Positions 56,494-59,400 of a stretch of DNA of 64,000 bases are shown in pieces. How positions within the stretch are numbered: position 1 is the stretch's first letter; every line of letters starts with the position of its first letter. A model generated the notes under the pieces. It saw only the letters and a list, made by a program, of their open reading frames with translations. It was not told where the DNA came from and searched no databases. The stretch is from Salvelinus alpinus (Eukaryota; Chordata; Actinopteri; Salmoniformes; Salmonidae): contig NC_092091.1 of the NCBI RefSeq assembly GCF_045679555.1, positions 18,474,072 to 18,538,071 on the forward strand, written 5' to 3'. A program made the position numbers and the translations under genes.

Positions 56494-59400
56494 CTGAAAA
56501 TGAAAACAGGCAACAGAACCGGATCAAAAAAACGTTGGTGTGAGAGGCAAGTTCTGGCAACCTTTTCATACATTGAGGAGGGATGTAGTTTCACTAATGT
56601 ATCACAATTTACAATGACAATTGAATCAGAAACTATTATCCAGAGTGACTTGGGATATGATCTACGTAGGTACTAGAGTGGATAGGGTGTATGGGAGAGG
56701 ATTTGGGCCTCACCTAGACCCTTGAGGAACTTGTTGACCCCACGTTGCTCGCTCCCTGGGAGAGAGTCCAGGTAGTCTTGTGACCTCACCTCAAACAGAC
56801 CTAGACACACAACAACAGTAGAATAATGAGAACACATACAATTGTGCAAAATTGTCATATAATTATGCATTTCAGACAGACTTACAGATTCCAAAAGCAG
56901 ACTTATCTTATCTGTTCCCCCTCTCTCTGTACTGCTTAGACCCTGCCTGGCTATACCCCCTCTCTCCGTACCTCTTAGACCCTGCCTGGCTATACCCCCT
57001 CTCTCCGTACCTCTTAGACCCTGCCTGGCTATAACCCCTCTCTCCGTACCTCTTAGACCCTGCCTGGCTATACCCCCTCTCTCCGTACCTCTTAGACCCT
57101 GCCTGGCTATACCCCCTCTCTCCGTACCTCTTAGACCCTGCCTGGCTATACCTCCTCTCTCCGTACCTCTTAGACCCTGCCTGGCTATACCCCCTCTCTC
57201 CGTACCTCTTAGACCCTGCCTGGCTATACCTCCTCTCTCCGTACCTCTTAGACCCTGCCTGGCTATACCCCCTCTCTCCGTACCTCTTAGACCCTGCCTG
57301 GCTATACCTCCTCTCTCCGTACCTCTTAGACCCTGCCTGGCTATACCCCCTCTCTCCGTACCTCTTAGACCCTGCCTGGCTATACCCCCTCTCTCCGTAC
57401 CTCTTAGACCCTGCCTGGCTATACCCCCTCTCTCCGTACCTCTTAGACCCTGCCTGGCTATACCTCCTCTCTCCGTACCTCTTAGACCCTGCCTGGCTAT
57501 ACCCCCTCTCTCCGTACCTCTTAGACCCTGCCTGGCTATACCCCCTCTCTCCGTACCTCTTAGACCCTGCCTGGCTATACCTCCTCTCTCCGTACCTCTT
57601 AGACCCTGCCTGGCTATACCCCCTCTCTCCGTACCTCTTAGACCCTGCCTGGCTATACCCCCTCTCTCCGTACCTCTTAGACCCTGCCTGGCTATACCCC
57701 CTCTCTCCGTACCTCTTAGACCCTGCCTGGCTATACCCCCTCTCTCCGTACCTCTTAGACCCTGCCTGGCTATACCCCCTCTCTCCGTACCTCTTAGACC
57801 CTGCCTGGCTATACCTCCTCTCTCCGTACCTCTTAGACCCTGCCTGGCTATACCCCCTCTCTCCGTACCTCTTAGACCATGCCTGGCTATACCCCCTCTC
57901 TCCGTACCTCTTAGACCCTGCCTGGCTATACCTCCTCTCTCCGTACCTCTTAGACCCTGCCTGGCTATACCCCCTCTCTCCGTACCTCTTAGACCCTGCC
58001 TGCGCTGCTCCCTCTCTGCGACGAACCCAGCGAACATCTGGGTCTCCATGAAGACCTCCAGGAACCTCTTCAGACTCTTTGAGGTGACAGCCTTGCGAAA
58101 GGCCTCGCGCTGAAAGTAGGACGGCGTGGGGGAGGAGGGGGCTCCAGACTCATCCTCTCGATCCCCCCCGCCCATGAAGAGAGGGTAGTGGCCCACCATT
58201 TCTACGAAGAAACATACAAAGGCCTCCGACACCACGGTACTGAGGGAGCTTGAGTCTGGGGAGGGAGGAGAGAGAGAGTAAGAGAGCCTTTCAACATGGA
58301 GGTCATATGCTTGCATAATAAAAATATCAGTTGTCACATCGACCTTCGTCAAAGCTGTATCGGTCACAACAAGACCCTTCTGCGAGACGTGTTAATATAG
58401 TAGCACTGACTCACCGGTGGGCATCTCACTGGCCAGTTCCTTCCTCTTGTCAAGAACATGTTCCAGAGCAGCCTGCAGCTTATGAGGCAGAATGGAGTCC
58501 TCGTCATCCAGCTGGAGAGGAAAGACTGAGGTGTGAGAGGAAAGGATGACCGTGTCCCATGAGCACAAAGGTGTTGCTACATCTATAGCTGTAGACAACT
58601 GTTTAAGAGATATACAGTATGTTGTTGGTCTGTTGCTATAGGTACTGTTGTTAGAGGTGTATACCTGTCTGAGGAAGCGGCTGTTGCCGAGGTCGACCAC
58701 CAGGACCTAAGGAGAGAGCAAAGGGCAGGGTGATGTCATTTCCTGTCAGTTTGGCAGCCTCAGCCCTTTCTCAGAGTAGAGCCATAGAGACCATTGTTTA
58801 ATGGAGGAAAGAGTTGAGGTCAGGGGTACACACACACACACACACACACACACACACACACACACACACACACACACACACACACACACACACACACACA
58901 CACACACACACACACACACACACACACACACACACACACACACACACACACACACACACACACACACACACAGTTAGCTGGGCTCGGGGGTCTGGTCTCA
59001 CCTCCTCTATGGGCAGCTCTTTGAGGCTGGGCAGGGAGCTGGATAGCAGACCCACAATGAAGGGTGTGGGGGTACACACTATGTCCAGCATGGCAGGGGG
59101 CAGCACGGGGATGTAGGTGTGTTGCCAGGTGAAAGGGTAAAGTAGCGCAACCACCGCATGGCAGCACTGAGACAGAGTACTGCAGAGAGAGGAGAGAGAG
59201 CAGGACAGCGAGGGAGAGAGATGACTATTGTTGATCAAACACATTGCTCATTTATAATACTCATATACAGTGGGGAGAACAAGTATTTGATACACTGCCG
59301 ATTTTGCAGGTTTTCCTACTTACAAAGCATGTAGAGGTCTGTAATTCTTATCATATCAATTGTGAGAGACGGAATCTAAAACAAAAATCCAGAAAATCAC

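Follow-up and report, generated by a model that had tools for sequence, protein, structure and literature searches.

One account of human F7 describes 37-bp repeats in intron 7 that carry the donor, of which the most upstream alone is normally used (PMC6627357), and in trout irak3 the first 15-17 nt of exon 5 are described as being repeated four times directly upstream, in intron 4 (PMC6763605). Given these two precedents, boundary repeats of splice signals represent a known kind of structure. A 38-bp VNTR in TERT intron 6 has been reported to influence splicing (PMC11830802), and exitrons have been described as internal parts of protein-coding exons whose retention introduces neither a stop nor a frameshift (PMC4484396).

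Here, we analyzed a 64-kb stretch of DNA (the window), whose minus strand carries the exons for the C-terminal part of a DENND2-type protein, and focused on the intron between exons g and h of this gene. The features concerned are as follows (the slash in donor motifs marks the exon-intron boundary):

57986..58255, minus strand: exon g, 270 nt, matched by Pfam dDENN, with its final 17 nt inside the array
56801..57985, minus strand: intron g-h (phase 1, 1185 nt), its gene frame free of stops
56917..58002, minus strand: 39-bp minisatellite (TRF, 27.8 copies, 97% matches)
57980..57985, minus strand: first donor, GAG/GTACGG, most likely the one used, at a junction common to four paralogues
56966..56971, minus strand: 27th donor, the last intact GTACGG
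56801..56932, minus strand: unique tail of 132 nt, with a decayed 28th donor (GCA/GTACAG) and the acceptor
56714..56800, minus strand: exon h (87 nt), followed by a donor of its own, GTGAGG
56462..56493, minus strand: last coding exon i, NKMKFLSKK, then stop

As in F7, the natural donor is located inside the first array unit (the array extends 17 nt into exon g) and near-identical donors follow downstream (27 copies of GAG/GTACGG). However, the F7 minisatellite has fewer copies than the one found here and its 37-bp unit is not a multiple of three, whereas the 39-bp units of this intron are all in frame and stop-free. The likeness to irak3 is that an exon edge is repeated in the adjoining intron, also in a salmonid, although the irak3 repeats are described as lying on the acceptor side, in four copies and without involvement of donors. 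The TERT VNTR is likewise an intronic minisatellite, but is described as lying about 3.5 kb from the affected exon, and G-quadruplexes rather than repeated donors are invoked for it. Retention of intron g-h would resemble that of an exitron in introducing no in-frame stop, yet, unlike an exitron, its counterparts in all four paralogues are non-open introns at the same junction. The matches listed from the open-licence literature included neither an account of this array nor any survey of minisatellites at exon-intron boundaries. What the present case adds is its large copy number and its frame neutrality.

Exons around the junction and the dDENN domain

Nine exons could be placed on the minus strand from 63698 to 56462, and their joined reading gives one protein with the C-terminus NKMKFLSKK; exon h is not terminal, as the coding exon at 56493-56462 comes after it. 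Both DENN (205.6 bits) and dDENN (46.2 bits) were identified in this DENND2-type protein by Pfam, and DENND1A and DENND1B were the only two PDB sequences matched at E up to 0.001 by a query longer than exons g and h. The gene may be DENND2A-like.

The alignment of DENND1B (PDB 3tw8) to the spliced protein is gap-free across the g-h junction, and the dDENN score is 51.0 bits (47/49 positions) for the spliced exons g and h, compared with 42.4 bits (38/49) for the retained frame. Since the junction falls at residue 319 and the Pfam dDENN match stops at 322, inserted units would lie at the C-terminal edge of the domain, three residues before the end of the match, and not within a d-DENN loop as the initial annotation had proposed. 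When exons g and h alone were compared with the PDB at E up to 1, the best 60 of 274 matches were antibody light chains and similar proteins (best E 0.0026), which were taken as chance matches, judged by name and E-value. The AF2 prediction of the retained frame, with a mean pLDDT of 30.9, is uninformative either way, and a promoter and terminator scan found nothing, its models being of bacterial type and not applicable to a fish gene.

Several other features were observed around these exons. Intron c-d contains a transposase-like stretch (Pfam DDE_3) at 59479-60021 (minus strand). A G-rich 17/34-bp array at 53100-53300 (minus strand; TRF 53121-53283) lies beyond the last coding exon and has 10 donor-like AGGTA motifs, with no known exon edge there, and a 42-bp minisatellite of 24.5 copies at 48850-49867 is closed by stops in each of the six frames. 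A TEAD-type gene, with matches to the TEA domain and the YAP-binding domain at 45291-45710 and 21202-21525 (minus strand), lies downstream of the DENND2-type gene.

The array and its open frame

In the gene direction, the repeat unit is GTACGGAGAGAGGGGGTATAGCCAGGCAGGGTCTAAGAG. Its pattern is matched 27 times with 0-2 mismatches, compared with 0 in 100 shuffles, and the array takes in the final 17 bases of exon g. GAG/GTACGG is found at 27 donors from 57985 to 56971 at a spacing of 39, with an intact donor in all 27 full units, and is followed by the decayed 28th donor (GCA/GTACAG) at 56932. Five of the 39 unit positions vary, two of them within the 9-base donor window and both in the last unit, so that there is no sign of the donors having been spared from variation, in numbers too small to test. 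One common variant, G14A, is present in 7 of the 27 units, scattered and never in neighboring ones; the order of the G and A variants reveals no clustering, and its lag-5 agreement is below nearly all shuffles.

The length of the intron is divisible by three (1185 mod 3 = 0) and its gene frame contains 0 stops, and a stop-to-stop frame of 572 codons (58391-56676) runs through exon g, the intron, and exon h. The initial annotation had described just such a stop-free 1185-base intron (57985-56801) in one open frame with both exons, holding about 27 units of 39 bases that copy the exon end and its GTACGG donor, and our analyses bear out each of these points. Its further statement that all donor choices, or full retention, would preserve the frame also holds for every GTACGG donor and for the whole intron.

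The open frame in itself, however, is weak evidence. On either strand, two of three frames of the tandem consensus contain no stop, and in the actual sequence three further frames remain open through most of the array (413, 416, and 338 codons). When the 22 bases of the unit that derive from the intron were shuffled, 72% of units remained open, whereas about 3% of shuffles of the 132-nt unique tail were stop-free; what is unlikely about the openness is the open tail, together with the need for a length divisible by three. One paper, citing other work, describes stop-free introns whose length is a multiple of three as rare and disfavored by selection (PMC4484396). Among the eight introns placed in this gene, four are multiples of three and two of these are stop-free, namely intron g-h and the ordinary 153-nt intron e-f (its C9 counterpart is also 153 nt and has one stop), and therefore the openness of intron g-h is unusual yet not unique within the gene. 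Considering that the period is divisible by three and that 17 of the 39 unit bases are coding, the openness is probably a by-product, although the open tail counts against this.

Paralogous introns in the same genome

The 2.37-Gb genome was searched with a query made of exon h and the end of the intron, and the four paralogous loci found in this way were all fetched (the set, defined by the exon h query, may not be complete). Similarity was 84% over query bases 1-212 for the C9 copy and 72-74% for the C37, C33, and C5 copies; C5 and C33 may be DENND2B-like. All four have the g-h intron at the identical place and phase, none has the 39-bp array in it, and in none is it open. In the C9 copy (L009), the final 34 exon bases are identical to those of the gene studied here, a single donor (GAG/GTGTGG) is followed by an intron of 174 nt (a multiple of three) with one in-frame stop, the homologous intron end is recognizable, and TRF found no array in the intron. 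The C37 copy has the donor GAG/GTACGG and an intron of 83 nt, not a multiple of three, with two stops, and the introns of C5 and C33 are 1509 nt (33 stops) and 2736 nt (43 stops), respectively. The best match to the unit anywhere in the four loci is 24/39 bases. Frame-breaking in relatives, which the initial annotation had named as an observation that would speak against its reading, is thus found in the paralogues, with stops in all four and a C37 length that is not a multiple of three. Moreover, the block of the tail shared with C9 begins after 1074 intron bases here but after 59 in C9, and hence in a different frame there, so that the intron has no conserved open frame running through it. 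Other repeats were observed in two of these introns: a different 40-bp array of 11.9 copies (L012 3880-4356) and an 18-bp array in C5, both away from exon edges, and a 12-bp repeat of 2.2 copies in C33.

C9 is the nearest paralogue (dS 0.25 and dN 0.016 over the 284 codons of exons c-i). In what is presumably a salmonid genome, the split between the two copies may be the salmonid genome duplication, with which this dS fits. Because C9 shares the junction and the exon end but is free of the array, comparison of the two sequences suggests that the array probably arose in the present copy after the split, although the state of C9 could in principle reflect a loss rather than a later gain here.

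A scan of the whole genome with the 24-base core of the array yielded, among the matches listed, 27 with 0-1 mismatch, all within the array. At up to 3 mismatches, the core was found at 622 places (22 for a control pattern); the best 100 of these 622 comprise 27 in the array and 73 elsewhere, and the 73 belong to a single dispersed sequence, 3 mismatches away from the core (one of the 73 differs by a base). In the two dispersed copies that were fetched (L023 and L024, C1), the likeness ends with the 24-base core (37/75 positions); given that it does not extend further in these two copies, it was taken as chance and the dispersed sequence was rejected as the source of the array. The exact core had 0 matches in viral_contigs and genome_contigs, as expected.

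Origin of the array and choice among its donors

In our view, the locus is most probably a young exon-intron-boundary minisatellite in one duplicated DENND2-type copy, whose first donor is used and whose open frame is a by-product. A stretch of 39 bases, comprising 17 exon-end bases and the first 22 intron bases with the donor, was probably duplicated in the present copy, and its anatomy suggests that slippage or unequal exchange then expanded it to about 27 copies. Any gain or loss of units would leave a complete exon end beside a donor, and expansion should therefore have cost little. Splicing would take place at the most upstream donor, 57985, the remaining units being removed as intron; an occasional switch to another donor, or retention, would leave the frame unharmed, and the open frame was presumably not selected for isoform production. 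The expansion is most likely recent and mostly neutral, its neutrality being judged from this scheme, and donor 57985 is most likely the one used, with 26 to spare, as we infer from the conserved junction and from the precedent of F7, a human gene.

It is possible, given the weak pairing of this donor with U1, that identical donors downstream are used in a leaky manner. If several donors, or retention, were used regularly, the array would be a generator of isoforms that add multiples of 13 residues at the dDENN end and vary with allele length, a possibility that the initial annotation had raised in stating that it could generate length variants. Every GTACGG donor keeps the frame, 80 of the 81 GTs found across these 27 units share a single phase, and the whole intron is stop-free, so that nonsense-mediated decay would presumably not remove such transcripts. 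However, array and openness are both absent from all four paralogous introns, in F7 the first donor alone is normally used, and retention lowers the score against dDENN. We consider this reading unlikely, and the comparison with the paralogues does not support it. Slightly less likely still is its extreme form, a protein VNTR encoded by splicing, in which leaky choice among the 27 in-frame donors would produce a 13-residue isoform ladder dependent on allele length, as a novelty after the split from C9.

An equally improbable alternative is that the array is kept for more reliable splicing at a weak donor, its extra copies recruiting more U1 or providing an in-frame rescue when the first donor is mutated. 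The predicted U1 pairing of GAG/GTACGG (-5.9 kcal/mol) is the weakest of the eight placed donors (the others range from -7.2 to -10.3), although by a weight table it ranked sixth of eight, and an intact donor in all 27 full units would also agree with such a role. Nevertheless, the array-free copies manage with single donors that are equally weak (C9, -5.7; C37, with the same GAG/GTACGG, -6.0), which argues that a donor of this kind does not need the array, and the two of five variable positions that lie in the donor window, small numbers as they are, give no hint of sparing. Compensation for a weak donor was thus rejected as the main reason for the array. An error of assembly or annotation, in the copy number or in the gene model at the g-h junction, is very improbable: near-identical arrays are difficult to assemble and the copy number comes from one assembly, but the junction is common to four paralogues, Pfam and PDB agree on it, and the scatter of G14A over 7 of 27 units is unlike a single mechanical duplication.

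The array constitutes a natural experiment on donor choice, with 27 identical, evenly spaced, and frame-neutral donors and, in its array-free sister gene, a control in the same genome. It suits a test in fish, and at many copies, of the rule known from F7 that the most upstream donor wins, and bears on the question of whether isoforms leak from frame-safe arrays, such arrays being invisible to decay surveillance.
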